DNA of 21,853 bases from Elusimicrobiota bacterium (GTDB lineage: Bacteria > CAYTYR01 > UBA6262), in NCBI GenBank assembly GCA_003153935.1, contig PMCA01000015.1:15041-36893 (forward strand). Reading direction: 5' to 3'. The notes beneath the pieces are model-generated. The model saw nothing but the letters and a program-made list of their open reading frames with translations. It was not told the DNA's origin and ran no database searches. Positions within the stretch are counted from its first letter, which is position 1; each line of letters opens with the position of its first letter. The translations under genes and the position numbers were made by a program. Below, piece after piece: positions 1,918-19,329 of this stretch.

Positions 1918-1925
1918 AGGATGCA

Positions 1926-3833
1926 ATGCTAACCACTGCGGCGATGGAATTATTGAATATAGTAGTAATGCGAGACAAAGCTGAAGAGATCATGGCTTAC
2001 TTGCTGAAGAAAAATGTTTTCCAGCCGCTGGACCTGCAGAAAGTTGAAGCCGCGGTATCGACGCTAACGCCCTATAAGTTGGAGGCGGAAACCAGCGCTC
2101 TGGACCTGCTGGAGGCAAAATTACGCGACCTGTCCCGTAAGACCGGCATCCCTATAGAATTAAAACGCGACCTGGAGCCGGTGGGACCGCAAAAAGCCCA
2201 GGAAATAATGAACGCCCTGGAGTACGAGATAGCTCCCCTGGTGGCGGAGAAAACTACCCTGGAAGAAAGCATCAAGCGCAAGGAAACATTACTGGCCAGG
2301 GCCGCGGAATCATTCGCCTTGCCTGCCCGTAAGAGCGGGATGTATAGTTTCATCGAAATGGCCCTGGGCAGAATTGAAACAAAAAACATACAATTATTGG
2401 AACGGAGCCTGGCGGGCCTGCCGCATATGAAGTATCCGGTCAGAGAGGAAGGCAAGAAAATAATCATCTTGCTGGTGGTACTGCGCCGTGACCGGGCCCA
2501 TCTGGACAAAATACTAAAAGATGTAGCCTGGGAAAAAGTGGATTATCCCAAAGATGGGCCGGCTTTATCGGAAGAGCTGGAGCAAAAGTACAATAAGGAT
2601 ATAGGGGAAGCGAAAACAAAAATACAAACCTTGGCGGAGAGTATAAACACCCTGGCCGCAAAATATACAACTGATCTGGAACGCATCCGGCTCAGCGCCG
2701 CCATTAAGCGGGCCCTGTTGGAAGCCAAAAAGGTTTCTTACGTCACCGTCAAGACCATGTTACTGACAGGATGGATCCCCAGCGAGGAAAAGGAAGAGGT
2801 GCTGGCGGCGATCAGGAAGATAGAGCAAGCTACTTTCCTCAGAGGGGAAAGAGCCGAAAAAGTAAATATGCCGGTGGAAGACGTGCCGGTGCTGTTCCAG
2901 AATAATTTCCTTATCAAACCATTCGAACTGCTGATAAATTCCTATGGTGTGCCCTGCTATGGCACTCTCGACCCGACGGCCTTCGTGGCAATAGCATTTT
3001 TACTGATGTTCGGGACCATGTTCGGCGATCTCGGGCAGGGATTGGTCCTGGCCGCGATCGGGGCTCTGATGTGGCGCGGCAAGAACCAGGCCCTTAAGCA
3101 GGCAGGCACCCTGATATTTTATTGCGGCAGCAGCGCGGCTATATTCGGGTTCCTGTTCGGCAGCGTATTTGGCTTCGAGTTCCATCCCTTCTGGATGAAA
3201 CCGATAGAGAACATCACGGAATTATTCAAAGTCGCCATTATATTCGGCATCATTGTCATCAGTTCGGGTATTTTATTCAATATAACCAACGCCATACGCA
3301 CCCGCGACCTTGGTAAATTACTTTTTGATAAGGCCGGGCTGGTGGCCGGACTGATCTACTGGACCGGCATAGCCATTGCCTTGAAAATATTCGTATCCCA
3401 GACCACTGTGCCACCGAGTTTTCTCTATACTGTCGGCGCGGGGTTATTGATAATATTATTGAAACCGATCCTGGAGATGATGTTCGGGCATAAGAAAGAC
3501 GGCGAGAGCCTGCCGCTAGCCATGGCGGAGAGCAGCGTGGATCTGCTGGAGATAGTCATGGGTTACCTGGCCAATACGGTGTCCTTCATCCGTGTGGCGG
3601 CCTTCGCTCTGGCGCACGCGGGATTATTTATTGCGGTATTTCAGCTGGCGAAGCTGGTGGGCGGATGGGGCGGCAGTCCGGCGTCGTATATCCTGATAGC
3701 GCTGGGAAATGTGGGGATCATCGCGCTGGAGGGATTGCTGGTGACGATACAATCCGTCAGGTTGAATTATTATGAGTTCTTTTCGAAGTTCTTTATCAGC
3801 GGCAAGCAGGAATTCAAACCGCTTAGTCTATAA
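1926..3833 (+). CDS. ntpI: V/A-type ATPase subunit I (a subunit)
   Basis: This 635-residue protein is the membrane stator subunit that forms the ion half-channels beside the c-ring. The cytosolic N-terminal half (about 1-335) is hydrophilic with long helices that dock onto the peripheral stalks. The C-terminal half (about 345-635) contains some seven or eight hydrophobic segments. Typical signatures are PTAFVAIAFLLMFGTMFGDLG at the start of the membrane part and SFIRVAAFALAHAGL near 553-567, with Arg556 as the essential channel arginine. The late NYYEFFSKFF motif and the GxxF-type C terminus are also family-typical. ATG at 1926 follows AGAGG at 1916-1920; the ATG at 1921 is out of frame and stops at once. 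Confidence 0.95.
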   Translation: MLTTAAMELLNIVVMRDKAEEIMAYLLKKNVFQPLDLQKVEAAVSTLTPYKLEAETSALDLLEAKLRDLSRKTGIPIELKRDLEPVGPQKAQEIMNALEYEIAPLVAEKTTLEESIKRKETLLARAAESFALPARKSGMYSFIEMALGRIETKNIQLLERSLAGLPHMKYPVREEGKKIIILLVVLRRDRAHLDKILKDVAWEKVDYPKDGPALSEELEQKYNKDIGEAKTKIQTLAESINTLAAKYTTDLERIRLSAAIKRALLEAKKVSYVTVKTMLLTGWIPSEEKEEVLAAIRKIEQATFLRGERAEKVNMPVEDVPVLFQNNFLIKPFELLINSYGVPCYGTLDPTAFVAIAFLLMFGTMFGDLGQGLVLAAIGALMWRGKNQALKQAGTLIFYCGSSAAIFGFLFGSVFGFEFHPFWMKPIENITELFKVAIIFGIIVISSGILFNITNAIRTRDLGKLLFDKAGLVAGLIYWTGIAIALKIFVSQTTVPPSFLYTVGAGLLIILLKPILEMMFGHKKDGESLPLAMAESSVDLLEIVMGYLANTVSFIRVAAFALAHAGLFIAVFQLAKLVGGWGGSPASYILIALGNVGIIALEGLLVTIQSVRLNYYEFFSKFFISGKQEFKPLSL

Positions 3834-3841
3834 ATATATAA

Positions 3842-4219
<378 letters not shown>

Positions 4220-4223
4220 TAAA

Positions 4224-4526
4224 ATGGAATTTTTCTGCATTGCCGACCGTGAAAGCAGTTTAGGTTTCCGGCTGGCCGGTTTGGATACGCGGGACGTCTC
4301 CAGCAAAGAGGAAGCGGAAGTAGCTTTGCAGGAAGCACTGGCTAAACAAGGCCTGGGCATCGTCCTGATCACCAGCCAGGCGGCTGCGTTCCTGCGCGCC
4401 GAGATCGACAAACTGGTGTATGAAAGGGAGTTACCGCTGATCCTGGAGATACCGTCCAAAGGCGGGCATGTCGAGGGCGGCGGAGTGGAAGATTTCTTAA
4501 AATCAGCATTGGGGATAAGTATATAG
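4224..4526 (+). CDS. ntpG: V/A-type ATPase subunit F
   Basis: This 100-residue protein is the small central-rotor subunit that binds the D shaft. The family pattern is a short alternating alpha/beta fold beginning with FCIADRESSLGFRLAGL. Next comes a helix with a Glu/Ala-rich EEAEVALQEAL segment, then the strand GIVLITSQAA, and finally LPLILEIPSKG before the C-terminal helix. The strand-turn pattern near GIVLITSQ is typical of subunit F across bacteria and archaea. It starts four bases after the K subunit and ends one base before subunit E. Subunit nomenclature varies: this is NtpG in Enterococcus and AtpF or AhaF in archaea. Confidence 0.9.
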   Translation: MEFFCIADRESSLGFRLAGLDTRDVSSKEEAEVALQEALAKQGLGIVLITSQAAAFLRAEIDKLVYERELPLILEIPSKGGHVEGGGVEDFLKSALGISI

Positions 4527-4527
4527 T

Positions 4528-5136
4528 ATGGATATGAATGAACTGACCCAACCGAATACCGAAAGCCTCAAGGTGATCTGCGAGCGCATCCAGAAGGAAG
4601 CGCAGGCGGAAGTGACTTTTCTTAAACAGAAAGCGGACCACGGGGCGCAGAAGATCCTGACTGACGCTAAAAATGAGGCTGAGCAGAAAAAGAACGACCT
4701 GATCCTGTGCCTGGAAGAAGAACAGCAGAAGATCCGGGAACGGGTATTTTCCACGCTTAATCTGGAGAAGAAAAAGATCGTCCTGCAGGAAAAGGAAGCG
4801 CTGGCGGATAAAGTGCTGGCCGAATTGAAGAACGTGGCAGCGGCATTCCGCCAGACCAGGGAATATACCACTTTCCTGCAGTCTGCCATTAATGAAGGGG
4901 CCAGGGTTATAAACACACAGGAAGTAACAGTGGTTTACTCCCCGCTGGATGAAAAGATAATGAACGATAATTTCAAGAACAAGGGCAAATATAAACTGCT
5001 AAAAGGTGATTTTAACGACCTGGGTGTGATCGTGCAGTCAGTGGACGGCAGGTTATTGTTCGACAACCGGTTAGCGGCCAGGCTGAAAAGAAAATATGAC
5101 GAGATCTACTCGCAATTAATAGCGGAGGCGTTTTAA
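4528..5136 (+). CDS. ntpE: V/A-type ATPase subunit E (peripheral stalk)
   Basis: A 202-residue stator subunit that forms the peripheral stalk with the small coiled-coil subunit at 564. Residues about 10-105 are a long charged coiled coil (IQKEAQAEVTFLKQKADHG and following). The C-terminal third is a globular alpha/beta domain that caps the top of the stalk on subunit B; its LGVIVQSVDGRLLFDNRLAARL (about 168-189) is a clear family mark. The stop codon overlaps the subunit A start by one base (TAATG), so translation is coupled. An alternative in-frame ATG two codons later (4534) cannot be excluded. Confidence 0.92.
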   Translation: MDMNELTQPNTESLKVICERIQKEAQAEVTFLKQKADHGAQKILTDAKNEAEQKKNDLILCLEEEQQKIRERVFSTLNLEKKKIVLQEKEALADKVLAELKNVAAAFRQTREYTTFLQSAINEGARVINTQEVTVVYSPLDEKIMNDNFKNKGKYKLLKGDFNDLGVIVQSVDGRLLFDNRLAARLKRKYDEIYSQLIAEAF

Positions 5137-6893
5137 TGCAGAAAGTAGCTGGTAAAGTATATAGAGTGGTAGGGCCGGTGGTGGAGCTGGAAGAAGTTAC
5201 TTTCCTGCGCATGCTGGATGTGGTGGAAGTGGGCGAACTGAAGCTGGTAGGGGAAGTTATGCAGCTGAAAGGCGACCACGCCTACGTGCAGGTTTACGAA
5301 GATACGACTTCGCTGAAAGCCGGCGACCTGGTTTATTCTGAAGGCCAACCGCTGATGGTGGCGCTGGGGCCGGGGCTTTTAGGCACCATTTACGACGGCA
5401 TTCAAAGACCCGAAGAGCTGATCGAAAAACAGCAAGGTTATTATATCGGCCGCGGCGTGCATCTGGACGCCCTGGACTTGAAGAAGAAATGGCATTTTAA
5501 ACCGGTCAAAACAGCCGGTACCGAAGTAAAAGGCGGGGAGATTATCGGGGAAGTGCAGGAAACATTCCTGATCAAACACAGAGTTATGATCCCGCCTGAT
5601 CAGGCCGGGAAAATTAAAAAAATCGTTCCTGAAGGCGATTATACCGTTCAGGATAAAATAGCGGAACTGGAAACGGAAACCGGGACCAAAGATATCACCA
5701 TGCTGCAATACTGGCCGGTAAGAGTGGGTCGTCCATATAAAACAAAAGAAGGCATTACTGAACCTTTGCTGACCGGGCAAAGGGTAATAGATACTTTATT
5801 TCCGATCGGGAAGGGTAGCTGCGTGGCAGTGCCAGGGGGATTTGGCACCGGCAAGACTGTGGTCCAACATCAATTAGCCAAATGGAGCGACGCGGAGATC
5901 GTGGTCTATATCGGCTGTGGCGAACGCGGCAACGAAATGACGGACATCCTTATCCATTTCCCGAAACTTATTGATCCGCACACCGGCCGACCGTTGATGG
6001 AAAGAACAATCTTTATCGCCAATACCTCCAACATGCCCGTAGCGGCGCGCGAGGCCAGTATCTATACCGGTATCACTTTAGCGGAATATTATCGTGATAT
6101 GGGTTATAACGTGGCCCTGATGGCGGACTCCACCAGCCGCTGGGCGGAAGCGCTACGTGAATTATCCGGCCGGTTGGAAGAAATGCCGATGGAGGAAGGA
6201 TTCCCGGCGTACCTGCCGTCGCGCCTGGCCGCTTTTTATGAGCGGGCCGGACACGTCAAAACTTTGGCCGGCAACGAAGGATCCATCAGTATCATCGCCG
6301 CGGTCTCACCTCCGGGCGGAGATTTTTCCGAGCCGGTAACGGCGCATACCAGGAGATTCGTCCGCGCTTTCTGGGCGCTGGACCGGGACCTGGCCAATTC
6401 TCGTCACTATCCGTCGATCAGCTGGCTGGACAGCTATTCAGAGTACCTGATAGACATTGAGGACTGGTGGAGCAAAAACATTAGTGAGGACTGGCTGGAG
6501 CTGCGCTATACCATGATGGACCTATTGCAGAAGGAGCAGCGCCTGCAACAGGTAGTAAAGTTAGTGGGGCCTGACGTCCTGCCGCAAGCGCAGAGACTGG
6601 TATTGGAGATATGCAGTGTTTTCAAAAACGGGTTTTTACAACAAGCGGCTTTTGATCCGATCGATACATACACGTCGGCGAAGAAGCAGTTCCTGATGCT
6701 GAAATCCATCGTTACCTTATATAAAGCGAGCGAGGAAGCCGTCAAGAAAGGCAGTAACGTATCCGATATCAGGGAAATGCCGATCTACCAGCAAGTGTTA
6801 CGCATGAAGACCGATTACCCGGAGGATAAACTGGCGGACCTGGAAAAAATGCCGGATAAAATAAAAGCAGCGCTGCAAGGGATGGGAATATAA
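5136..6893 (+). CDS. ntpA: V/A-type ATPase catalytic subunit A
   Basis: This 585-residue protein has the length typical of catalytic A subunits, which include an extra bulge domain absent from F-type beta. Three copies alternate with B in the soluble head and hydrolyse or make ATP. The P-loop GGFGTGKT is at residues 234-241 with Lys240 and Thr241. Downstream, [13 protein letters not shown] contains the catalytic Glu region, and [17 protein letters not shown] and [17 protein letters not shown] are hallmark A-subunit blocks. [12 protein letters not shown] follows, then a helical C-terminal domain. The start overlaps the end of subunit E and the stop overlaps subunit B, both as TAATG. No key residue appears lost, so this should be an active enzyme. 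Confidence 0.98.
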
Positions 6894-8299
6894 TGTCAAA
6901 AGAACTTACTAATCTAAGAGAATATGTCGGAGTCGACGAGATCAAGGGACCGGTATTTATTATCCGGAACGTCCATAACGTAGGTTATAACGAACTGGTC
7001 GAGATCATCGACGAACAGAACAAGAGCCGCGTTGGCATTACCCTGGAAGTAGGCAAGGGTTACGCGGTGGTGCAGGTTCTGGGTGGGACGACTGGACTTT
7101 CGATAAGCAAGTCCAAAGTGCGTTTCCAGGAAAAACCGCTGTTGATGGGCGTATCGGAAGAACTGCTGGGACGGGTTTTCGACGGATTAGGTAATCCGAT
7201 CGACAATATGCCTCGCCCGGCATACAAGGAATGGGCCGATGTCAACGGCGCAGCTATCAACCCGACTGCCCGCGATTATCCCAATAATATTATCGAGACC
7301 GGTATTACGGTCATTGACGTGATGAATACCCTGGTGCGTGGACAGAAATTGCCGATCTTCTCCGGCAGCGGTTTGTCCCATGATATGATCGCCGCGCAGA
7401 TAGCCCGTCAGGCCAAAGTGAAGGACGACGAGCAGTTCGCTGTGGTGTTCGCCGCCATGGGCGTGAAATACGACACGGCGCGGTTTTTTATAAAAAGTTT
7501 CGAGGAATCCGGCGTGCTGGAAAGGGTGGCTATTTTCCTGAGCCTGGCCGACAGCCCGTCCATTGAAAGGATACAAACGCCGCGTTCGGCGCTGACCTGC
7601 GCTGAATACCTGGCGTTCAAGAAAAATATGCACGTGCTGGTAATCATGACCGATATGAGTAATTACTGCGAAGCCCTGCGTGAGCTTTCCACCGTGCGCG
7701 GTGAAATACCGGCGCGCAAAGGTTATCCCGGTTATTTATACAGCGATCTGGCCAGTTTGTACGAAAGAGCTGGAATGATCAAGGGAGTTAAGGGCTCGAT
7801 CACACAATTGCCTATATTGACCATGCCTAATGACGACATTACCCATCCGATACCCGATCTGACCGGATATATAACCGAAGGGCAGATAGTCTGCGACCGC
7901 GATCTCCACAGCCGGGGTATTTATCCCGCTATCGCGGCCCTGCCTTCATTGTCAAGGTTGATGAAAGATAATATCGGTGAGGGTCATACCCGGGAGGATC
8001 ATCCGTCTCTGGCGTCGCAGTTGTTCGCCTGCTACGCGCAGGTCAAAGACATTCGGGCCCTGGCCTCCATCATCGGCGAAGAAGAACTGTCGCCGCTGGA
8101 CCATGAATACTTAAATTTCGGTGAAGAGTTCGAAAGGAAATTCCTGAGTCAGGGCTACAACGAGAGAAGGACCCTGGAGCAGAGCCTGGACCTGGGCTGG
8201 AGCATTCTGAATATATTCCCGCCGGAAGAACTGGTGCGCATCAAGGCCGATATGGTCAAGAAATACTATAAACCCAGACCGGAGCAAGAGGAAAAGTAA
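6893..8299 (+). CDS. ntpB: V/A-type ATPase regulatory subunit B
   Basis: This 468-residue, non-catalytic nucleotide-binding-fold subunit alternates with A in the head. Family marks are [12 protein letters not shown], the degenerate phosphate loop [18 protein letters not shown] in place of a true Walker [16 protein letters not shown], and [35 protein letters not shown] and [31 protein letters not shown]-type blocks follow, the latter contributing the arginine-finger region near the interface. The gene overlaps A at its start and D at its end by one base. Nothing in the sequence is unusual. Confidence 0.98.
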
Positions 8300-8916
8300 T
8301 GCAATTAAACATGCCGGCGACAAAAAGCAATTTAATAGGATTAAGGAAATCCCTTGCCCTGACCAAAGAGGGCTACGAATTGCTGGATGAGAAACGCCGG
8401 ATATTATTAAATGAACTGAACCTGGTGGTTCACCAGGCCAATAAGGTCCAGCATGACCTGGAAGAGGCTCTGCAAAAGAGTTACGCGCTGGTAGACAAGG
8501 CGGTGGTTACCCAGGGACGCATAAAAGTGGAGCAGACCAGTCTGGCTGTTGACATAAAGAATGATATCAGCATATCCTCGCGTCGGCTGATGGGGGTAAG
8601 CATCCCCAGCATAAAATTGCAAATGACGGACAAGCCGCCCTATTATAGTCCCTACCAGTCTAATTTCTATATCGATGAGGCCATCATCCAGTTCCGGGAC
8701 GTGCTAAAGATGCTGGCGCAGTTGGCGGAGAAAAGGATCACCCTGATGCGGCTGGCCAAGGAAGTGCAGAAGACCATCAGGAAAGTGAACGCCCTGGAAA
8801 AGGTCTATATCCCGTATTATACCGAAGCGGTAAAAATAATCTCCGACCGCTTGGATGAGGAATCAAGGGAAGCGTTCTCTACATTAAAATTGTTGAAACA
8901 GATTATTAAATCTTAA
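8299..8916 (+). CDS. ntpD: V/A-type ATPase subunit D (central shaft)
   Basis: A 205-residue, mainly helical protein forming the rotor shaft that turns inside the A3B3 head and joins it through F and C to the c-ring. Typical features are the N-terminal PATKSNLIGLRKSLALTKEG, where the long first helix starts, and the C-terminal long helix containing RRVNALEKVYIPYY-like KVNALEKVYIPYYTEAVK. Length matches the family. The gene overlaps the stop of subunit B by one base and is the last ATPase gene. No J- or H-type extra subunit follows. No terminator is visible between this gene and the next, so the UspA and PtsN-like genes may share the transcript. Confidence 0.96.
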   Translation: MQLNMPATKSNLIGLRKSLALTKEGYELLDEKRRILLNELNLVVHQANKVQHDLEEALQKSYALVDKAVVTQGRIKVEQTSLAVDIKNDISISSRRLMGVSIPSIKLQMTDKPPYYSPYQSNFYIDEAIIQFRDVLKMLAQLAEKRITLMRLAKEVQKTIRKVNALEKVYIPYYTEAVKIISDRLDEESREAFSTLKLLKQIIKS

Positions 8917-9454: not shown

Positions 9455-9910
9455 ATGAGAATAAGCGATTATCTTAAAAAAGAGAATTGCGTAATGAACT
9501 TACGGGCCATCAGCAAGGAAGAAGCAGTCAGGGAAGTAGCCGGAGCACTGGTATCAGTCGGTAAAGTTAAAGACGAAGAGAGATTCGTGCAGGACGTACT
9601 GGAGAGGGAGAAGCTGGGCTCCACCGGCATCGGCCTGAAAGTAGCCATTCCGCATGCTCCAACTGACGCGGTGAACGGATTCGTGATCGGCTTCGGTCGC
9701 TCAGAGCTGGGGATTGATTTCCAGGCCATCGATGACGAAAAAGTGCACCTGGTATTCGTTATGGGAACCAACCCGGAAGAACTGAGCCTATACCTGAAAC
9801 TGCTGTCTGAGCTGTCCCGCTTGCTGAGAAAAAGCGACTTCCGTGAGGCCCTGCAAAAGGCGACCTCCGGCGAAGAAGTTGTGGATATCTTCAAGAAATT
9901 CGAAGCATAG
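9455..9910 (+). CDS. ptsN: PTS EIIA type-2 domain protein (PtsN/fructose-type)
   Basis: This 151-residue single-domain protein belongs to the EIIA family that accepts phosphate from HPr. The phosphorylatable histidine is His67 in GIGLKVAIPHAPTDAV, within the typical block EREKLGSTGIGLKVAIPH. LVFVMGTNPEELSLYLKLLSELSRLL and the closing FREALQKATSGEEV are also characteristic. As a lone domain with no EIIB or EIIC neighbour it more likely regulates than transports sugar. PtsN (EIIA-Ntr) in proteobacteria links nitrogen and potassium status, but whether this protein does so is inference. AAGGAG at 9441-9446 gives good spacing. The symbol is by resemblance only. Confidence 0.85.
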   Translation: MRISDYLKKENCVMNLRAISKEEAVREVAGALVSVGKVKDEERFVQDVLEREKLGSTGIGLKVAIPHAPTDAVNGFVIGFGRSELGIDFQAIDDEKVHLVFVMGTNPEELSLYLKLLSELSRLLRKSDFREALQKATSGEEVVDIFKKFEA

Positions 9911-9979
9911 TAATTTAAGTTACCAAAAGCAGATATTTTTTACTTGTACTAATAGTAAGCTAAAAGTGAATAAAAATTA

Positions 9980-10071
9980 GGCACATTGGTGTGCCGAAAA
10001 TGGCTTAAGGCCCTAAAGAACACAGACGTTCAAATGGTCAATGGTTTTGACTTTATTGAGCGTTTTTTTTT
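9980..10071 (+). promoter_or_regulatory. Putative ANTAR-type antitermination leader of glutamine synthetase
   Basis: Two small hairpins have six-base loops. P1 is GGCAC (9980-9984), loop ATTGGT, GTGCC (9991-9995). P2 is GAAC (10018-10021), loop ACAGAC, GTTC (10028-10031). Both loops have A at position 1 and G at position 4, the known recognition pattern of ANTAR RNA-binding antiterminators. P2 shares GTTC with the 5' arm of the terminator at 10027-10062, so P2 and the terminator cannot form together. A weak promoter (TTTACT 9939-9944, TAAAAG 9961-9966, 16-base spacer) could start the leader. The hairpins are seen; the ANTAR function is inferred, since no ANTAR protein lies in the window. Confidence 0.6.
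10027..10071 (+). terminator. Intrinsic terminator in the glutamine synthetase leader
   Basis: CGTTCAA (10027-10033) pairs with TTGAGCG (10056-10062), including one G-U. After a small internal loop, GGTCAA (10036-10041) pairs with TTGACT (10047-10052). Nine T residues follow (10063-10071). It lies 45 bases before the next start codon and could both end the ptsN transcript and act as an attenuator. Confidence 0.82.
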
Positions 10072-10116: not shown

Positions 10117-12306
10117 ATGAACATCAGACACAGCGTTTTGAAAGCGATCGACGGAGTGAAACTGGTCAAGGACAACCAGCCCAAAAAAGTGTCCAAGTAT
10201 TTCGGTATCAACACCTTCAGCCATGATGAAATGGTGAAAAGGGTCAGCAAGAAGACCATGGAGTCTTTCGCCCTATGGTTAAATGAAGGCAAGACCATCT
10301 CGGCCAAAGAAGCGGACGAGATCGCCGACGCCATGAAGAATTGGGCCACGGATAAAGGCGCAACTTTTTACGCGCACTGGTTCCAGCCGATGACCGGCTT
10401 GACCGCGGAGAAGCATGATACCTTTTGTAGCCTGAAGAACGGCAAAATGATGGAGAAATTCTCCGGTTCCAAATTGATATTAGGCGAACCGGATGCGTCC
10501 AGCTTCCCCTCGGGCGGCATCAGGAGCACCTTTGAAGCCCGCGGCTATACCGCCTGGGATCCTTCCAGCCCGGCGTTCCTTATTGAGTCCGAACTGGGCA
10601 AGACCCTGTGCATTCCCTGCATCTTCGTTTCTTATCATGGCTACGCGCTGGATAAGAAACTGCCGCTCTTGAAGTCCGATGAAGCTATCAGCCGGGCGGC
10701 GGTGAATTTCCTGAAATTATTCAAAAATAAAAATGTCAAAAAGGTGGTCTCCACCTGCGGTCCGGAACAGGAATACTTCCTGATCGACAAGCATTACTAT
10801 AAATTAAGACAGGACCTGGCGTTGACGGGTCGCACCCTGATCGGGGCGCCATCACCGAAAGGACAGCAGTTAGAGGACCAGTATTTCGGTTCCATCAAGG
10901 AACGGGCGATGAACTTTATGTACGAGGTTTGCGAGGAAGCCTATAAAGTAGGTATCCCGGTCAGCACCCGTCATAATGAAGTGGCGCCGCACCAGTATGA
11001 GTTCGCGCCGATCTTCGAAGAATCCAACTTAGCGGCCGACCACAATCAGATGCTGATGGAGATCATGAGGAAGGTGGCCTTAAGGCATGACCTGGTCTGC
11101 CTGCTGCATGAGAAACCGTTTGCCGGCATTAACGGCAGCGGCAAGCACTTGAACTGGTCGATGGCCGATGACCAGGGGAACAATTTATTGAACCCTGGGC
11201 AAACGCCCCAGGAAAACCTGCAGTTCCTCGCGGTCCTGGTAGCGATCCTGCATGCCGTTTACCATCATTCCGACCTGTTGCGGGCCAGCATCGCTTTCGC
11301 CGGCAACGAGCATCGTTTAGGCGCCAATGAAGCTCCTCCTGCCATCGTTTCCGTATTCCTGGGAGAACAGCTTACCCAGATTTTGGACACGATCGAGAAG
11401 GGCGCCAAACAAAAAGTAAGCAAACAGGATATCATCGATCTCGGCGTGGGCAAACTGCCGAAGGTCAACAAAGACGCGACCGACCGCAACCGCACCTCGC
11501 CTTTCGCTTTCACCGGCGCCAAGTTTGAGTTCCGGGCGCTAGGTTCTTCCCAGAATATTTCCACTCCGATCATGATCCTCAATACGGTGATCGCGAATTC
11601 GCTGGCTTACGTTACTGGTCAGATCGAGAAGTTAGCCAAGACGAAAGACTTCGAGACCGCGGTAATGACGGTGGTCACCAACCTGGTCAAAGACACCAAG
11701 AAGATCAGGTTCGAAGGCAACAACTACGCTGCTGAATGGGTCACGGAAGCGGAAAAGAGGGGCCTGCCGAATATCGCGGCCACTTTTGAAGCTCTCAAGG
11801 CGCTATTGAAGAAAGACAATATTGCCATATTTGAAAGACAGGGAGTTTTGTCCAAAGATGAGATGATCTCCCGCTATCACATCTGGGTGGAGATGTATAA
11901 CACCATCCTGACCATTGAAGCTAATACTTTGATGGAAATGGTCAACGCCAATGTCGTACCGGCCGGCTTTAATTACCTGAGCCACCTGGCGAAGATATTG
12001 GGGCAGTTAACCGATCTTAAAGAAAAAGGTTCCCTGGCGGCTGACGATGGCGCTTTCACGGACCTGCAGTCACATTTGACCGAGATCACCAATAAAATAT
12101 ATTACGTGCGCAAAAATACCCTGGCGATGGGTAAGCTGTTAGAAAAAGCCAAAGGCCTGGACGGGGAAGACAGGGCAGAGCTATACTTTGAAGAACTAAA
12201 GCCCTTGATGGAGCATATCCGCAAGCACTGCGACGACCTGGAAACGGTGATCGCGGATGAGCATTGGGATCTGCCGAAGTACCGCGAGATGCTGTTTATA
12301 ATGTAG
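10117..12306 (+). CDS. glnN: Glutamine synthetase type III
   Basis: At 729 residues this matches GSIII, the large dodecameric form that makes glutamine from glutamate, ammonia and ATP; GSI is about 450-470 residues and GSII about 350-400. Family-specific blocks are GGIRSTFEARGYTAWDPSS (from 133), CGPEQEYFLID with metal-binding Glu, STRHNEVAPHQYEFAPIF (283-300), HEKPFAGINGSGKHLNWS (331-348) and NRTSPFAFTGAKFEFRALGS. GAGGAGG at 10101-10107 is a strong ribosome site. No GSI adenylylation motif is expected in this type. The leader upstream suggests control by transcription attenuation. The gene is followed four bases later by a glutamine amidotransferase and then by GltBD, which together complete the GS-GOGAT route. 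The symbol glnN follows common GSIII usage. Confidence 0.97.
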   Translation: MNIRHSVLKAIDGVKLVKDNQPKKVSKYFGINTFSHDEMVKRVSKKTMESFALWLNEGKTISAKEADEIADAMKNWATDKGATFYAHWFQPMTGLTAEKHDTFCSLKNGKMMEKFSGSKLILGEPDASSFPSGGIRSTFEARGYTAWDPSSPAFLIESELGKTLCIPCIFVSYHGYALDKKLPLLKSDEAISRAAVNFLKLFKNKNVKKVVSTCGPEQEYFLIDKHYYKLRQDLALTGRTLIGAPSPKGQQLEDQYFGSIKERAMNFMYEVCEEAYKVGIPVSTRHNEVAPHQYEFAPIFEESNLAADHNQMLMEIMRKVALRHDLVCLLHEKPFAGINGSGKHLNWSMADDQGNNLLNPGQTPQENLQFLAVLVAILHAVYHHSDLLRASIAFAGNEHRLGANEAPPAIVSVFLGEQLTQILDTIEKGAKQKVSKQDIIDLGVGKLPKVNKDATDRNRTSPFAFTGAKFEFRALGSSQNISTPIMILNTVIANSLAYVTGQIEKLAKTKDFETAVMTVVTNLVKDTKKIRFEGNNYAAEWVTEAEKRGLPNIAATFEALKALLKKDNIAIFERQGVLSKDEMISRYHIWVEMYNTILTIEANTLMEMVNANVVPAGFNYLSHLAKILGQLTDLKEKGSLAADDGAFTDLQSHLTEITNKIYYVRKNTLAMGKLLEKAKGLDGEDRAELYFEELKPLMEHIRKHCDDLETVIADEHWDLPKYREMLFIM

Positions 12307-12310
12307 GATA

Positions 12311-13003
12311 ATGAAAAAAAATATAGTAGTTGTCAAGCACGTGGAAACTGAAGGGCCGGGCAGTATTGCGGATTATTTCCGCAATACTGCTTTTGACCTG
12401 AAAACGGTAGAGTTATCCCAAGGGGAGAGCCTGCCGTCCGACCTGTCGGCAGTCGCCGCCGTTATCGTTATGGGCGGTCCTATGAACGTCTACGAGGAAG
12501 AGAAATATCCTTTCTTGAAAAAGGAAAATGATTTTATCGGTGAGGTCGTAAAAAGGGAAATACCATACCTGGGTATATGCCTGGGGTCGCAACTGCTGGC
12601 CAAAGCCTGTGGCGGTAAAGTAGAGAAAGCGCCGCAAAAAGAGATAGGCTGGTCGGTAGTAGAACTGACCGAGGCGGCGAAGGACGATCAGCTGTTCCGG
12701 GTGTTTACCGATAAACTGGATGTCTTCCAGTGGCATGAAGATACATTCACTATCCCGGACACCGGGGTGTTACTGGCAGGATCGGAAGTGTGTCCCAACC
12801 AGGCCTTCCGGTATGGCCGGAACGCCTACGGTCTCCAGTTCCATATAGAAGTGACCCCCGAGGTGATCTGGAACTGGGTCAAGGCGGACGAGTCGTTAGT
12901 AAATCCCATCGGTATGTTGATGGATTCCTATAAAAAAAAGGACCTGTACGAACAACAGGCCCATATTATTTACAATAATTTTAAGGCCTTATTACCGGCG
13001 TAA
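12311..13003 (+). CDS. Class I glutamine amidotransferase-like protein
   Basis: A 230-residue stand-alone GATase-1 domain resembling GMP-synthase-type amidotransferases. The triad is visible: Cys90 in GICLGSQLL, His178 in LQFHIE, and Glu180. VIVMGGPMNVYEE (about 51-63) is the typical oxyanion-strand block, and FQWHEDTF precedes the last part. Such domains release ammonia from glutamine for a partner, or cleave gamma-glutamyl compounds. No synthetase partner is adjacent, so the acceptor is unknown. It begins four bases after glutamine synthetase and is probably co-translated. A perfect 12-bp hairpin lies in codons 17-27. A GuaA-type role is unlikely because the ATP-pyrophosphatase part is absent. 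Confidence 0.87.
   Translation: MKKNIVVVKHVETEGPGSIADYFRNTAFDLKTVELSQGESLPSDLSAVAAVIVMGGPMNVYEEEKYPFLKKENDFIGEVVKREIPYLGICLGSQLLAKACGGKVEKAPQKEIGWSVVELTEAAKDDQLFRVFTDKLDVFQWHEDTFTIPDTGVLLAGSEVCPNQAFRYGRNAYGLQFHIEVTPEVIWNWVKADESLVNPIGMLMDSYKKKDLYEQQAHIIYNNFKALLPA
12360..12394 (+). repeat. 12-bp perfect hairpin inside the amidotransferase gene
   Basis: GCAGTATTGCGG (12360-12371) and CCGCAATACTGC (12379-12390) are perfect complements around a seven-base loop, followed by four T residues. It lies within coding sequence, about 50 bases after the start codon. It could pause polymerase or protect upstream mRNA. The T-run is too short to call a terminator. Confidence 0.75.
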
Positions 13004-13012: not shown

Positions 13013-13053
13013 AACGCTGATTGACCAATATTTGGGCAAAAAATGGTGAATTT

Positions 13054-13329
13054 ATGATAACCGTTATATTCGCGGAAGACCAGAAAAAGATAAAAGAGAT
13101 CGTGGACCGGATGCTGAAGACCGAGGGTTACGCGGCTACCGAAGAGAAGGAAGGGCGGCTGTACCGGTCCGTTTTGGACAAGGTGGAAAAGCAGTTATTG
13201 GAGTATGTTTTGGAGCGGACCGAAGGAAATCAGTTGAAATCTTCCCGGATTTTAGGTATAAATCGTAATACACTGCGCAGTAAGATCAAGAGCCTGGGAA
13301 TTGAAGCCGACAAGTGGAAAAAGGTTTAG
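13054..13329 (+). CDS. Small Fis/NtrC-type DNA-binding protein, likely response-regulator remnant
   Basis: A 91-residue protein whose residues 36-83 match the Fis-type helix-turn-helix found at the end of NtrC-family regulators: LYRSVLDKVEKQLLEYVLER, then GNQLKSSRILGINRNTLRSK and SLGI. Residues 1-27 (MITVIFAEDQKKIKEIVDRM and on) look like the first strand and helix of a receiver domain, with an acidic pair Glu8-Asp9. The rest of the receiver and the whole AAA+ domain are missing. It may be a functional Fis-like DNA-binding protein or an NtrC cut down to its ends. ATG at 13054 has GGTG seven bases upstream; a TTG start at 13021 would add 11 residues without homology. It lies just before gltB, so it may act on this cluster. 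Confidence 0.8.
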   Translation: MITVIFAEDQKKIKEIVDRMLKTEGYAATEEKEGRLYRSVLDKVEKQLLEYVLERTEGNQLKSSRILGINRNTLRSKIKSLGIEADKWKKV

Positions 13330-13343
13330 CGCTGAAAGGTTCA

Positions 13344-16300
13344 ATGATGAATCGTTTGGGTTTATATGATCCACAATTTGAGCATGACTCCTGCGGGGTA
13401 GGATTTGTTTGCAATATCAAAGGGCACCGGTCCAATGATACTGTCCGCCAGGGTTTGCAGGTATTGAACCGTCTGGCCCATCGCGGCGCCACCGGGGCCG
13501 ACCCCAAGACCGGGGACGGCGCCGGTATTTTAATACAGATACCGCATGAATTCTTCGCCAAGGTTTGCCTGGAGAACAAGATAACCCTGCCCAAGGCCGG
13601 GGAATACGGCACGGGCCTGGTTTTCCTGCCGCAGGATGCCAAGGAACGCGAGCAGTGCAAAAAAGCTTTTGCCGCGGTGGTCAAAGAGCAAAAATTATCA
13701 CTACTGGGCTGGCGCAAGGTGCCGGTGGATAACACCGATATCGGTAAGACCGCCCGTGACGCCGAGCCGGTGATCGAGCAGGTGTTTGTCGGCCGGAGCA
13801 AGAAAACCGCCAAAAACGCGAAGGATCCTTTACAATTCGAGCGTCAATTATATATAGCCCGCAAACTGGTAGAGAACAGAATCCGCGCCTCCGCTTTAAA
13901 ACAAAAGTCTTTTTTCTATATTACCAATCTTTCCAGCCGCACCTTTTCCTATAAAGGACTGCTGATGCCGCACCAGGTGGATAAATTCTTCCTGGACCTG
14001 CAAAACAAGGACCTGAAAAGCGCCATCTGCCTGGTCCATTCCCGTTACAGCACCAATACTTTCCCGACCTGGGACCTGGCCCAGCCGTTCCGCTACCTGG
14101 CGCATAACGGCGAGATCAATACCCTGCGCGGCAACATCAACTGGATGCGCGCCAAGGAAGGTCTCCTCAAAAGCAAACTCTTCGGCGACGACCTGAAAAA
14201 AATATTACCGACGATAGTTCCCGGCGGCAGCGATTCCGCCGCGATAGATAATGTGTTCGAATTAATGGTGCTGGCCGGACGATCGATGGCCCACTCCATG
14301 ATGATGCTGATCCCGTCCGCCTGGGAACACAATGAACTGATGGACGAAAAGCTCCGGGATTTCTATATGTACCATACCTGCCTGATGGAGCCCTGGGACG
14401 GCCCGGCGGCTATCGCCTTTACCGATGGCCGGCAGGTGGGGGCGGTGCTGGACCGCAACGGCTTACGGCCGGCGCGCTACATCGTGACCAAACAGGGTAT
14501 GGTGGTGATGGCCTCGGAGGTCGGGGTCCTGGATATACCGCCGCAGGATATTTTGAAAAGCGGCCGGCTGGAACCGGGCAAGATGTTCTTTATCGATACG
14601 GAGCTCGGCCGGATCGTCGATGACCAGCAGTTAAAAGAAGAGATCTCGGGACGCAATCCCTACGGCAACTGGATAAAAGAAAACATGCTGGAGCTGGACA
14701 GCCTGCCGGAAGCGGTCATGCTGCCGCTGGACAAAAGCTTCTATTTAAAATCCGATGATATAGTTACGTCTCTCAAAGCGTTCGGTTATACCCGCGAGGA
14801 CCTGAAGTTCATACTCAAGCCCATGGTGGAGAACGGCCAGGAGCCCGTGGGCTCCATGGGTAACGACACGCCGCACGCTATCCTGAGCAAAAAACCGCAA
14901 TTATTATTTAATTACTTCAAACAACTGTTTGCCCAAGTCACCAACCCGGCCATCGATCCCATCCGCGAAGAACTGGTAATGAGCCTGGAAAGCTTTATGG
15001 GACCGCGCAAGAACCTGTTCGAGGAAATTCCCCAGAACTGCCGTAAGCTCAGGGTCAGCCAGCCGATCATCACCAATGTGGAACTAGCCCGCATACATTC
15101 GATCAAAGAACCGGGTTTCCGCGCCAAACGCATTTCCATCCTGTTCAAAGCCGGGGAAGAAAAAGATTTACGCACCGCCCTGAACCGTATCTGCAGCGAT
15201 GCGGAAGAAGCCATTAAAGACGGATTTACCTTTATAATATTGAGCGACCGCGGCGTTAATAAAGACAAGGCCGCTATTCCATCGCTGCTGGCTACGGGCG
15301 CCGTGCACCAGCACCTGGTCAAGATCAGCCTGCGCGCCCAGATCGCTATTATTATAGAAAGCGCTGAACCGAGGGAAGTTAATCATTTCGCGCTGTTGTT
15401 GGCGTTCGGCGCCGGGGTCATCAATCCCTACCTGGCCTTTGAAGCCATCGAGCACATGATCCTGGAAGGCGATGTGCACCTGCGCTTAGAAAAAGCTACC
15501 GACAACTATATTAAAGCCATAGACAAGGGCATCAAAAAAGTACTGTCCAAGATGGGCATCTCCACCCTGCAGAGTTATCGCGGGGCGCAGATCTACGAGG
15601 CCCTGGGACTGGGCAAAGATATCATCGACCGTTGTTTTACCGGGACGGTTTCACGTATCGGCGGCGCGACGCTGGATGTGATCGCCCGCGAAGCGTTGGA
15701 ACGTCATAACCAGGCGTTCCCGGTCCGGCATGAGTTCAGTATCAAGTACCTGGCCAGCGGCGGCCTGTACCAATGGCGCCGTGACGGGGAGTTCCATTTA
15801 TGGAATCCGGAAAGCATCGCCGCCCTGCAGGACGCCACCCGGGACAATGATGCCGACCGTTTCCATGAATTTTCCGAGATGATCGATAACCAGACTGGGC
15901 ATCCTACCACCCTGCGCAGCCTGCTGAAATTTAAAAAAGCCAAACCGGTCCCGATAGAAGAAGTGGAACCGGTCGAGAATATAGTCAAAAGATTTGTCAC
16001 CGGCGCCATGAGCTTCGGGTCCATCAGCAAGGAAACCCACGAGTCTATGGCTATCGCCATGAACCGCTTGGGCGGCAGGTCCAATACGGGTGAGGGCGGA
16101 GAAGATCCAGCCAGGTTCCAGCCGTTGCCGAACGGGGATTCCCTGCGCAGTTCCATTAAGCAGATAGCTTCCGGCCGGTTTGGTGTAACCACTAATTACC
16201 TGGTCAATGCCGACGAGATACAGATCAAGATCGCCCAGGGCGCCAAACCGGGCGAGGGCGGGCAGCTGCCCGGCCATAAGGTGAGCGCAACCATCGCCAA

Positions 16301-17891
16301 GACACGTTATACGATGCCGGGTGTGACTTTGATATCGCCGCCGCCGCACCATGATATTTATTCTATTGAAGACCTGGCCCAGCTTATATTCGACCTGAAA
16401 AATACTAATCCTAAAGCGCGCGTCAGCGTTAAACTTGTATCCGAGATCGGCGTGGGCACCATCGCCGCCGGCGTGGCCAAGGGCCATGCCGATATGATCC
16501 TGATATCGGGAGGGGACGGCGGTACCGGTGCGTCCCCGCTCAGCTCGGTTAAACACGCAGGATTGCCATGGGAACTGGGCTTGGCCGAAACTCACCAGAC
16601 GCTGGTGCTCAACGACCTGCGCAGCCGGGTGCGGTTACAGACTGACGGACAACTGCGCACGGGCAGGGATGTGGCGATAGCCGCCCTGCTGGGCGCCGAG
16701 GAATTCGGGTTCGCTACCGTAGCGTTGATAACCCTGGGCTGCGTGATGCTGCGCCACTGTCATCTTAATAATTGTTCGGTCGGTATCTGCACGCAGGACG
16801 ATATTCTGCGCAAGCGTTTCCGCGGCAGTCCCGAATACCTGGTCAATTATTTCCGCTTCGTGGCTACGGAGCTGCGGGAGATCATGGCCGAACTGGGCCT
16901 GAAGACCATAGAAGAAATGGTCGGCCGGACCGACTTGCTGGAATTAAACCAGGATATCCTGGACTGGAAAACCAAGGGCCTGGATTACTCCCGGATACTG
17001 TATAAACCCAAAGTAAAAGCGGATATAGGTACGCACCAGTCCATTAAACAAAACCATAATATAGACGATGTGCTGGACCATAAGCTGATAACGCTCGCCA
17101 GGCCGTCACTGGAGAAAACCGAACCGATCAGGGTGGAACTGGCTATCAGGAACACCGATCGGACCACGGGAGCGATGCTGAGCGGCGAGATCTGCCGCAA
17201 ATACGGCGAGACCGGTTTGCCGGAAGATACGGTTAATTTCAAATTCAGCGGAGTGGCGGGGCAGAGTTTCGGCGCCTGGCTGGCCAAGGGCGTCACTTTT
17301 GAGCTGGAGGGCCTGGCCAACGATTATGTAGGCAAAGGTATCTCCGGCGGCAAGATCATCGTTTATCCCGATAAGAAATCCGACTACCGCCCGGCGGAAA
17401 ACATCATCATTGGCAATACATCATTCTACGGCGCCATCACCGGTGAAGCTTATATACGGGGCGTAGCTGGAGAAAGATTCTGCATCAGGAATTCCGGATT
17501 GAACGCGGTAGTGGAGGGGGTAGGCGACCATGGCTGCGAGTATATGACCGGCGGGCGGATAGTGATCCTGGGCCAGACCGGCCGAAATTTCGGCGCCGGC
17601 ATGAGCGGCGGCATCGCCTATATATATGATAGCGGCAATGATTTCCGCGGCAAATGCAACCTGGACATGGTAGAGCTGGAGAGCATTACCGATGAAGACG
17701 CGGAAACCATCAATAATCTGTTGCGTAACCATTATAAATATACCGCCAGCGGCAATGCTAAGAAGGTTCTGGATGATTTCCAGAACCAACGTAACCGGTT
17801 CATCAAGGTCATGCCGGTGGAATACAAGAAACTGCTGGAGAAAAAGAAACTGGCCGACAAACTGGATTTGGAGCAATCATACGATGGGTGA
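13344..17891 (+). CDS. gltB: Glutamate synthase large (alpha) subunit
   Basis: This 1515-residue protein has the size of bacterial NADPH-dependent GltB, which takes the amide from glutamine and with 2-oxoglutarate forms two glutamates. Cys17 in HDSCGVGF would become the catalytic N-terminal nucleophile after removal of a short propeptide. The amidotransferase domain is about 17-430, a linking domain follows, and the FMN-binding synthase domain is about 840-1220, with SGGDGGTGASPLSS. The [3Fe-4S] cysteines are Cys1133, Cys1139 and Cys1144 in GCVMLRHCHLNNCSVG. The C-terminal Gly-rich beta-helix includes GISGGKIIVYP. GAAAGG at 13334-13339 supports ATG at 13344 or 13347; a GTG at 13314 overlapping the previous gene is less likely. 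It overlaps gltD by eight bases. Confidence 0.98.
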   Translation: MMNRLGLYDPQFEHDSCGVGFVCNIKGHRSNDTVRQGLQVLNRLAHRGATGADPKTGDGAGILIQIPHEFFAKVCLENKITLPKAGEYGTGLVFLPQDAKEREQCKKAFAAVVKEQKLSLLGWRKVPVDNTDIGKTARDAEPVIEQVFVGRSKKTAKNAKDPLQFERQLYIARKLVENRIRASALKQKSFFYITNLSSRTFSYKGLLMPHQVDKFFLDLQNKDLKSAICLVHSRYSTNTFPTWDLAQPFRYLAHNGEINTLRGNINWMRAKEGLLKSKLFGDDLKKILPTIVPGGSDSAAIDNVFELMVLAGRSMAHSMMMLIPSAWEHNELMDEKLRDFYMYHTCLMEPWDGPAAIAFTDGRQVGAVLDRNGLRPARYIVTKQGMVVMASEVGVLDIPPQDILKSGRLEPGKMFFIDTELGRIVDDQQLKEEISGRNPYGNWIKENMLELDSLPEAVMLPLDKSFYLKSDDIVTSLKAFGYTREDLKFILKPMVENGQEPVGSMGNDTPHAILSKKPQLLFNYFKQLFAQVTNPAIDPIREELVMSLESFMGPRKNLFEEIPQNCRKLRVSQPIITNVELARIHSIKEPGFRAKRISILFKAGEEKDLRTALNRICSDAEEAIKDGFTFIILSDRGVNKDKAAIPSLLATGAVHQHLVKISLRAQIAIIIESAEPREVNHFALLLAFGAGVINPYLAFEAIEHMILEGDVHLRLEKATDNYIKAIDKGIKKVLSKMGISTLQSYRGAQIYEALGLGKDIIDRCFTGTVSRIGGATLDVIAREALERHNQAFPVRHEFSIKYLASGGLYQWRRDGEFHLWNPESIAALQDATRDNDADRFHEFSEMIDNQTGHPTTLRSLLKFKKAKPVPIEEVEPVENIVKRFVTGAMSFGSISKETHESMAIAMNRLGGRSNTGEGGEDPARFQPLPNGDSLRSSIKQIASGRFGVTTNYLVNADEIQIKIAQGAKPGEGGQLPGHKVSATIAKTRYTMPGVTLISPPPHHDIYSIEDLAQLIFDLKNTNPKARVSVKLVSEIGVGTIAAGVAKGHADMILISGGDGGTGASPLSSVKHAGLPWELGLAETHQTLVLNDLRSRVRLQTDGQLRTGRDVAIAALLGAEEFGFATVALITLGCVMLRHCHLNNCSVGICTQDDILRKRFRGSPEYLVNYFRFVATELREIMAELGLKTIEEMVGRTDLLELNQDILDWKTKGLDYSRILYKPKVKADIGTHQSIKQNHNIDDVLDHKLITLARPSLEKTEPIRVELAIRNTDRTTGAMLSGEICRKYGETGLPEDTVNFKFSGVAGQSFGAWLAKGVTFELEGLANDYVGKGISGGKIIVYPDKKSDYRPAENIIIGNTSFYGAITGEAYIRGVAGERFCIRNSGLNAVVEGVGDHGCEYMTGGRIVILGQTGRNFGAGMSGGIAYIYDSGNDFRGKCNLDMVELESITDEDAETINNLLRNHYKYTASGNAKKVLDDFQNQRNRFIKVMPVEYKKLLEKKKLADKLDLEQSYDG
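17765..17787 (+). repeat. 9-bp perfect hairpin near the 3' end of gltB
   Basis: GGTTCTGGA (17765-17773) and TCCAGAACC (17779-17787) are perfect complements around TGATT. It lies about 100 bases before the gltB stop, without a T-run. The function is unknown; it may be chance within coding sequence. Confidence 0.6.
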
Positions 17892-19329
17892 CCCTAAAGG
17901 TTTTCTAAAAATTAAACGGGATAAGAGTAAATACCGGCCGGCTTGCGAGCGGGTGCGCGATTACCGCGAGGTAGTGCTGCCGCGCAAGGATGAAGCTTCC
18001 CAGGACCAGGCTTCGCGTTGTATGGATTGCGGCACGCCTTTCTGCCACTGGGGCTGCCCGATCGGCAATTATATACCTGACTGGAACGACCTGGTTTTCC
18101 ACGCGCATTGGGAAAGAGCGATCGACCTGCTGCATGCTTGCAACAACCTGCCCGAGATCACCGGACGGCTATGTCCGGCCTTGTGCGAATACGCCTGCGT
18201 ACTGGGCATAAATGACGACCCGGTGACTGTCCGGGAAAATGAACTGGCTATTATTGAGCACGCTTTCAAAGCGGGACTGATCAAACCGAACCCGCCCCTG
18301 TACCGTACCGGCAAGAACGTGGCGGTGATCGGGTCCGGGCCAGCCGGCCTAGCCTGCGCCGACCAGCTGAATAAGGCCGGGCACAAGGTGACCGTTTTCG
18401 AGAAGGATGAAAAAGCGGGCGGTATATTACGTTACGGTATCCCTGATTTCAAGCTGGAGAAGTGGATACTTGACCGCCGCCTGGAAATATATGAAAAAGA
18501 AGGTATTGTATTCAAGACCGGCATAAATGTTGGTCCGGCTTACCCTGTGAATAAGCTGTTGAAAGAATTTGACGCGGTCTGCCTGGCCGGGGGTTCGCGC
18601 CAGCCTCGCGATCTTAAGATCGAGGGCCGGGATTTAAAAGGGATACATTACGCCATGGATTACCTTATCCAGTCCAACCAAAGAGTGGCCGGGAAGGTAA
18701 TACCAGCGGCGGAGATCATTGACTCCAAGGACAAGAAAGTGGTGGTAATAGGCGGCGGGGATACAGGGTCGGATTGCGTAGGCACGGCTCACCGCCAGGG
18801 CGCCAGTTGCGTAGTGCAGATTGAACTGCTGCCCCAGGCGCCAGATTGCCGGTCCAAGGAATCCCCCTGGCCCAAATACCCGTTGCTGTTGAAAACCTCA
18901 ACCAGTCATGAAGAGGGCGGGACTCGCGAATGGGCGGTCCTGACCAAGAAATTCACGGGTGATAACGGTCAGGTGAAACAATTATCCTGCGTGCGGGTGG
19001 ACTTCTCCCAGAAGGACGAAAAGGGCTGCGCGCAGATGAAAGAGATCACCGGCAGCGGGTTCACCATTGACGCCGATCTGGTGATCCTGGCTATGGGGTT
19101 TGTGCACCCTGAACAAGCGGGCCTGCTGGAGGGGCTGAAAGTGGCCCTGGACCAGAGAGGCAACGTGAAGACCGGGCCGGACCTCCAGACCTCGGTCAAG
19201 AAAGTATTCAGCGCGGGGGATATGCGCCGGGGACAATCCCTGATCGTTTGGGCGATAAGCGAGGGCCGTACCGCGGCTTATAACATAGACTTATACCTGA
19301 TGGGCAAGACCAGCCTGCAAAAAATTTAG
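17884..19329 (+). CDS. gltD: Glutamate synthase small (beta) subunit
   Basis: A 481-residue flavoprotein that passes electrons from NADPH through FAD and iron-sulfur clusters to GltB. Cluster cysteines are Cys46, 49, 54 and 58 (CMDCGTPFCHWGC) and Cys97, 101 and 105 (CPALCEYAC). The FAD-binding Gly motif is GSGPAG at 150-155, and the nucleotide motif is GGGDTG at 290-295. A late AGDMRRGQSLIVWAISEGR block is typical. ATG at 17884 overlaps the gltB stop by eight bases, with GGAG at 17870-17873. Open frame further upstream lies inside gltB and has no homology. Sequence and length are complete, so an active partner of GltB is expected. Confidence 0.97.
   Translation: MGDPKGFLKIKRDKSKYRPACERVRDYREVVLPRKDEASQDQASRCMDCGTPFCHWGCPIGNYIPDWNDLVFHAHWERAIDLLHACNNLPEITGRLCPALCEYACVLGINDDPVTVRENELAIIEHAFKAGLIKPNPPLYRTGKNVAVIGSGPAGLACADQLNKAGHKVTVFEKDEKAGGILRYGIPDFKLEKWILDRRLEIYEKEGIVFKTGINVGPAYPVNKLLKEFDAVCLAGGSRQPRDLKIEGRDLKGIHYAMDYLIQSNQRVAGKVIPAAEIIDSKDKKVVVIGGGDTGSDCVGTAHRQGASCVVQIELLPQAPDCRSKESPWPKYPLLLKTSTSHEEGGTREWAVLTKKFTGDNGQVKQLSCVRVDFSQKDEKGCAQMKEITGSGFTIDADLVILAMGFVHPEQAGLLEGLKVALDQRGNVKTGPDLQTSVKKVFSAGDMRRGQSLIVWAISEGRTAAYNIDLYLMGKTSLQKI

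Follow-up and report, generated by a model that had tools for sequence, protein, structure and literature searches.

What governs the glutamine synthetase type III (GSIII) gene that opens a nitrogen-assimilation operon in an Elusimicrobiota bacterium, and what is the structured leader in front of it for? We address this in a 21,853-nt stretch of contig PMCA01000015.1 (hereafter the window), together with the rest of the source genome (G000; 1.75 Mb, 95% complete) and genomes of related bacteria and Omnitrophota. We conclude, at a probability of roughly 0.88, that the leader is an ANTAR-controlled antitermination switch heading an operon for GSIII, a glutamine amidotransferase, a small HTH_8 protein, and glutamate synthase (gltBD) (Table 1). 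It would be only half of the arrangement, because a sigma-like promoter element upstream goes with the leader. We lean, with less assurance, towards a two-step nitrogen regulon in which a dedicated, diverged ECF-like sigma factor and a near-invariant promoter would start transcription and GAF-ANTAR antitermination, sometimes through two switches, would decide on read-through. Such a regulon would take in glutamine synthetase, glutamate synthase, ammonium transporter, and PII genes, as well as nifH in one relative, across the UBA6262 lineage and a subset of the Omnitrophota.

Table 1. Features of the leader, the operon, and the candidate regulators (window positions unless a contig of G000 is named)
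Feature	Position	Strand	Basis or remark
Promoter-like element GTTACC-N16-TACTTGTA, probably read as -35 and -10 by a dedicated ECF-like sigma factor	9919..9948	+	exact match
P1 hairpin GGCAC-ATTGGT-GTGCC, predicted ANTAR recruitment hexaloop, A1/G4	9980..9995	+	sequence, folds, relatives
Linker, 22 nt, holding a small 4-bp hairpin at 10002-10012	9996..10017	+	sequence, fold
P2 antiterminator hairpin GAAC-ACAGAC-GTTC, A1/G4, 4 pairs	10018..10031	+	sequence, folds, relatives
Intrinsic terminator, mutually exclusive with P2 (3' arm common to both)	10024..10071	+	sequence, fold
GSIII, first gene under the leader	10117..12306	+	Pfam GSIII_N (230 bits), Gln-synt_C-ter, Gln-synt_C
Class-I glutamine amidotransferase, second operon gene	12311..13003	+	Pfam GATase; 4-nt gap after GSIII
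Small Fis-type HTH_8 protein	13021..13329	+	Pfam HTH_8
Glutamate synthase large subunit, gltB	13314..17891	+	Pfam GATase_2, Glu_synthase, GXGXG
Glutamate synthase small subunit, gltD, ORF as listed	17692..19329	+	Pfam Fer4_20, Pyr_redox_2 from residue 88
GAF-GAF-ANTAR protein, 411 aa	contig C25
GAF-ANTAR protein, 243 aa	contig C27
Sigma-like gene	C28:284-856 (L267)		about 24 kb upstream of GSIII, same contig

Leader architecture and conservation

The initial annotation read two hairpins here whose six-base loops both start with A and have G as the fourth base, with only four pairs in P2 and 22 bases between the hairpins, and each of these features is present in the sequence. The P1 stem has five pairs, with a possible sixth A-U pair inside the hexaloop as read from the sequence. 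The leader has these features of an ANTAR target RNA: two hairpins of at least three pairs with six-base loops, A1 and G4 in both loops, and a P2 that overlaps a mutually exclusive intrinsic terminator, the last of these evident from the folds and from the comparison of sites. In the terminator, ACGTTCAA (10026-10033) pairs with TTGAGCGT (10056-10063) around an inner helix GTCAA/TTGAC, and a U tract of nine T follows at 10063-10071. The annotation had also described the 3' arm of P2 as shared with the terminator, and alternative folds bear this out: the truncated leader RNA folds into exactly P1, the small linker hairpin, and P2 (-15.8 kcal/mol), whereas the complete leader adopts P1 plus the terminator at the expense of P2 (-30.5 kcal/mol, z -3.9), an energy matched by none of 200 shuffles.

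To gauge how often such an arrangement arises, the window was scanned for a P1 of at least 5 bp and a P2 of at least 4 bp, both with A1/G4 hexaloops, a linker of 2-30 nt, and a P2 overlapping a terminator of at least eight pairs. The leader is the one place that qualifies, and 60 dinucleotide-shuffled windows contain none on either strand. A scan of the window with Rfam release 15, which may hold no ANTAR family, gave no relevant match.

Three relatives of G000 were found by contig search. The same leader precedes GSIII in two family members (G001 and G003, the latter Elusimicrobia bacterium UBA6262) and in about a dozen Omnitrophota genomes. When hairpins in these GSIII leaders are chosen by stem letters only, the P1 loops read ATTGGT, AAAGCA, ATTGAT, AAGGTA, ATTGTA, ATCGTT, ATTGCA, AAAGTA, ATCGTA, and AGAGAA, three further loops start with G1, and G4 is present in 14 of 14. 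Loss of the loops or stems in relatives had been set beforehand as the outcome that would speak against ANTAR control; instead the hairpins are kept, and the loops vary except at G4 and, mostly, A1. Covariance models R1 to R3 supplied further sites. Across 59 sites with intact stems, G4 is invariant in both loops (59/59), A1 occurs in 43 P1 and 50 P2 loops with mostly G1 in the remainder, and the linker spans 6-44 nt (median 19). A terminator overlaps P2 at all 65 comparable sites, with a median pairing score of 25 versus 11 for shuffles. Conserved letters are confined to the two small hexaloops, with no larger conserved core.

Compensatory stem changes alongside fixed loop letters had been proposed as a further check. 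Within the GSIII leaders alone covariation is uninformative, because their stems hardly vary and had been selected on GCAC/GTGC and GAAC/GTTC. The compensatory changes came only from sites at other genes, with stems such as GATAC/GTATC and AGAC/GTCT: in a 55-row alignment that was itself fitted to the structure, both partners are replaced in five of nine stem pairs, where shuffles give 1.8. Stems are thus preserved by compensatory change across sites at different genes. Model R3, built on Omnitrophota sites only, returns the window leader as its single match in G000 (E 4.5e-9), a mildly circular result, as the window was among the sequences behind the models that located those sites; a check based on the upstream element only, described below, avoids this circularity.

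In the Omnitrophota loci L066, L068, L074, L080, and L082, the region upstream of GSIII has the 30-bp element, P2, and the terminator with no recognisable P1, and the same genomes carry a full dual-hairpin leader after GSIII, before the HTH_8/gltB operon.

Target genes and candidate regulators

The next gene at 64 of the 65 sites is a nitrogen-assimilation or ANTAR gene, the exception being L223. First genes at the sites include GSIII, the HTH_8/gltB operon, GSI, GATase, gdhA, amtB, PII, an FMN glutamate synthase, and the ANTAR gene itself; the suggestion that the motif might recur before amtB and other nitrogen genes was thus borne out for amtB, PII, gltB, gdhA, and GSI. G000 has four copies of the 30-bp element, all on the GSIII contig, which precede amtB, an amino-acid permease-PII fusion, a PII-amtB operon, and GSIII. 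Covariance models find only the GSIII site in this genome. The other three leaders, which have weak or odd P2 stems, were found via the upstream element.

The three additional element copies, at L267:7986-12176 (G000:C28), carry ANTAR-like leaders, two of which have two terminator switches in tandem. The PII-amtB leader reads CCCC-AGTGTT-GGGG and AAC-AAAGGC-GTT plus a terminator, followed by a second switch, AGAC-ATAGAC-GTCT, with a terminator of its own. In family member G002, the element and a leader stand before a gene that reads as nifH (nitrogenase iron protein, named from its sequence), with the element at 11163-11192 of contig C5 on the minus strand (L270, G002:C5:9800-11900). This position hints that nitrogen fixation may be under the same control.

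Absence of any ANTAR protein from the genome was the other outcome set beforehand against ANTAR control; G000 encodes two above the Pfam cut-off (77.8 and 63.2 bits). Aligned with EutV (6wsh), both keep most of the residues that contact the hexaloop in that protein (PMC8934654): Arg142, Lys143, Lys149, Met172, and Arg175 are kept in both, Lys147 is K/R (Arg in one), Tyr164 is Y/F (Phe in one), and Arg168 and Arg177 are changed to Gln and Ser. Contacts were mapped by hand, the numbering of the alignment chain running two ahead of the paper's. The 243-aa GAF-ANTAR protein is the likelier regulator and the 411-aa form the second choice, because the leader-bearing Omnitrophota G078 and G079 have only GAF-ANTAR. 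ANTAR proteins occur in 50 of 51 genomes with the motif versus 161 of 234 without it (Fisher p 9e-7). ANTAR and GSIII genes share a contig in at least 48 Omnitrophota genomes, always on the same strand and in at least 45 within 10 kb. G004 (88% complete, 200 contigs) has leaders with no ANTAR protein found among its contigs, and the same holds for G346.

We propose that transcription probably starts just downstream of the element at 9919-9948, which an ECF-like sigma factor would recognise, and that the RNA would by default form the terminator and stop at the U tract. Under nitrogen shortage, a signal suggested because of the target genes, a dimer of the GAF-ANTAR protein would bind P1 and then P2, contacting both hexaloops through A1/G4. 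Held in this way, P2 would block the terminator and let polymerase proceed into the glutamine synthetase and glutamate synthase genes, by analogy with EutV and NasR. The element-plus-leader unit would likewise control amtB, the amino-acid permease-PII fusion, and the PII-amtB operon on the GSIII contig, as well as genes of these kinds in Omnitrophota.

The upstream element and its probable sigma factor

The element follows the pattern GTTACC-AAAA-rich-N-T-rich-TACTTGTA. The exact match in the window is a single one, where 0.03 would be expected even with up to two mismatches. Its length is fixed at 30 nt, and it occurs at 35 of the 65 ANTAR sites, 4-43 nt before P1. It is present in 42 of 71 genomes at one to four copies each, and a reversed-pattern control gave 0. 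We chose 102 leaders solely by this element, using no ANTAR model, and counted hexaloop hairpins of at least four pairs in the next 180 nt: 134 carry A1/G4, whereas shuffles give 17 and the opposite strand 12.

In most genomes a sigma-70-family protein of 165-190 aa is encoded beside one copy of the element. TIGR02937 (sigma70-ECF) gives a full-length match at 64.2 bits (cut-off 42.9), and 13 of 13 members match; Pfam region 4 in the G000 protein falls below cut-off. In the predicted structure (pLDDT 73.5) the two halves resemble known structures of ECF sigma regions 2 and 4; at a pTM of 0.47, how these domains are placed against each other is not reliable. The sigma gene is found in 39 of 42 genomes with the element and in three of 29 lacking the exact element (p 6e-13). 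An element lies within 150 nt after the sigma gene in 33 of 40 cases; the G000 sigma gene is not adjacent to one. Two of the three sigma-bearing genomes without the exact element have variants after the gene, GTTACC-...-TTACTTTA in G004 and GTAACA-...-TACTTGTA in G071. Co-occurrence and linkage together suggest that the ECF-like sigma factor may direct transcription from GTTACC-N16-TACTTGTA, a pairing predicted from sequence.

After the sigma-like gene of G000, a c-di-AMP riboswitch (Rfam RF00379, 73.4 bits) lies at L267:970-1140 (G000:C28), and the genes that follow it resemble kdp potassium transport genes.

Could the leader be something simpler? An ordinary terminator or attenuator, ending upstream transcription or attenuating GSIII in some other way, would leave P1 and P2 as meaningless chance hairpins, in keeping with their short stems and with the lack of a relevant Rfam match. 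The data already contradict this account, which we rate as very improbable: shuffled windows do not reproduce the arrangement, across two phyla the loops keep A1/G4 and otherwise vary, a cross-phylum model finds the leader, and A1/G4 hairpins are enriched where no ANTAR model was used. A riboswitch, perhaps for glutamine, or another RNA that responds to a small molecule would be a second alternative, since the place before a glutamine synthetase gene and the terminator switch are both typical of such RNAs. Yet no Rfam riboswitch matches the window or the relatives' leaders at E up to 5, and conservation is limited to letters of two small hexaloops, so the chance of this reading is slight indeed. 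P1 could also be taken for DNA, not RNA structure: GGCAC-N6-GTGC resembles the -24/-12 element of a sigma-54 promoter, and nitrogen genes are classic sigma-54 targets under NtrC-type control. This we reject as practically negligible, given that no Sigma54_DBD (PF04552) gene occurs in G000, three family members, G004, or G071, that the GG-to-GC spacing is 11 and not 10, and that other P1 stems of the regulon (CCCC/GGGG, ACAC/GTGT, GATAC/GTATC) do not resemble it.

The most serious competing account touches the upstream element only and leaves room for ANTAR control of the leader. On this view the 30 bp would be bound by a different nitrogen regulator that recognises DNA, the operon's own HTH_8 protein being one candidate, and a standard promoter would follow immediately. 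In L058 and L063, TTGTAA-N17-TATAGT could indeed serve as a sigma-70 promoter, and co-occurrence is unable to tell a sigma factor from an activator. In most leaders, however, a -10 is missing at that place, and the gap between the element and P1 can be as short as 4-5 nt. Two blocks at a fixed 16-nt spacing are what a sigma factor reads, and a sigma-family gene adjoins an element copy in most cases; moreover, where the sigma factor has diverged, in G071, the -35 half has changed (GTAACA) and the -10 half has not. We accordingly regard a separate regulator as unlikely, though a genuine contender, and favour recognition of the element by the ECF-like sigma factor. Another assignment, in which TTGTA(A) within the element acts as -35 for an ordinary sigma-70 promoter, suits only a few leaders.

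Relation to known systems and genomic surroundings

Dual-hexaloop antiterminators are known ANTAR targets in the eut (EutV), nasF (NasR), and amiE (AmiR) RNAs (PMC3369931, PMC3369936). The present leader resembles them in its tandem hexaloop hairpins, A1/G4, and the P2 3' arm common to the terminator, and the system as a whole resembles theirs in having an ANTAR protein in the genome and nitrogen genes downstream. The mechanism of antitermination is established for EutV (PMC3369931, PMC8934654). NasR, like the G000 proteins, is a one-component sensor with a C-terminal ANTAR domain that can be aligned with theirs; the sensor is GAF here and NIT in NasR. Clade leaders differ from the eut, nasF, and amiE RNAs in tolerating G1 in some loops and in having tandem double switches in some cases. 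The likely regulators differ too, being one-component GAF-ANTAR proteins, and the candidate phyla lie outside the published searches that were consulted.

The initial annotation had wondered whether the linker was too long. It does exceed the 5-12 nt of eut leaders (PMC3369931), as does the clade median; it lies within the 2-25 nt used in actinobacterial ANTAR RNA searches (PMC8164766) and is ordinary for its clade. A GAF-ANTAR dimer would need to tolerate the longer linker, because EutV no longer antiterminates when the linker is 14 nt long (in vivo) or is extended by 20 nt (in vitro; PMC3369931, PMC8934654).

The annotation's impression that ANTAR control of GSIII would be new holds for the lineage and not for the kind of gene. 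Ramesh et al. (2012) predicted ANTAR control of glutamine/glutamate synthesis, PII, and ammonium transporter genes in other phyla (PMC3369931, PMC3369936), so the leader alone is not new in kind. Their Desulfotomaculum regulons, predicted by covariance search, cover glutamate synthase, glutamine synthetase, PII, and ammonium transport; the kinds of target genes and the presence of several leaders per genome are shared with the bacteria studied here, whereas the available text of PMC3369931 describes no dedicated sigma factor or fixed promoter element. What is new is the occurrence of ANTAR leaders in the UBA6262 lineage and Omnitrophota, with tandem and long-linker forms, and their link with an ECF-like sigma factor and element, for which the literature searched holds no published counterpart. 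Searches for ANTAR with Omnitrophota, and for ECF sigma factors with nitrogen assimilation, returned nothing on point in a literature in which few subscription papers were within reach.

The linked factor shares regions 2 and 4 and the predicted fold with ECF sigma factors (TIGR02937), and differs in being divergent and linked to nitrogen assimilation. We know of no ECF sigma factor linked to nitrogen assimilation, nor of well-studied isolates from these phyla. The leader provides a concrete candidate switch for control of nitrogen uptake in them, and with the element and sigma factor an entire regulon can be delineated by sequence. The known ANTAR grammar also grows, by longer linkers, by loops in which G1 is tolerated, and by switches in tandem. 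If the two-step reading is true, an ECF-type sigma factor would be dedicated to nitrogen assimilation and act with ANTAR antitermination, doing the job that sigma-54 and NtrC do in proteobacteria; sigma-54 is absent from most genomes checked. A nitrogen regulon of this composition would surprise specialists.

Within the operon, the true start of gltD is probably near 17.9 kb, because the listed ORF overlaps gltB. A second GSIII gene, 76% identical, lies at G000:C9:23288-25474 (L036), with neither the leader nor the 30-bp element. Upstream in the window are a PII protein (33-440), a V/A-type ATPase operon (883-8916), and a PTS EIIA gene (9455-9910) whose end lies 8 nt short of the 30-bp element; in Omnitrophota, one element copy (L277) stands before a PTS EIIA-like gene.
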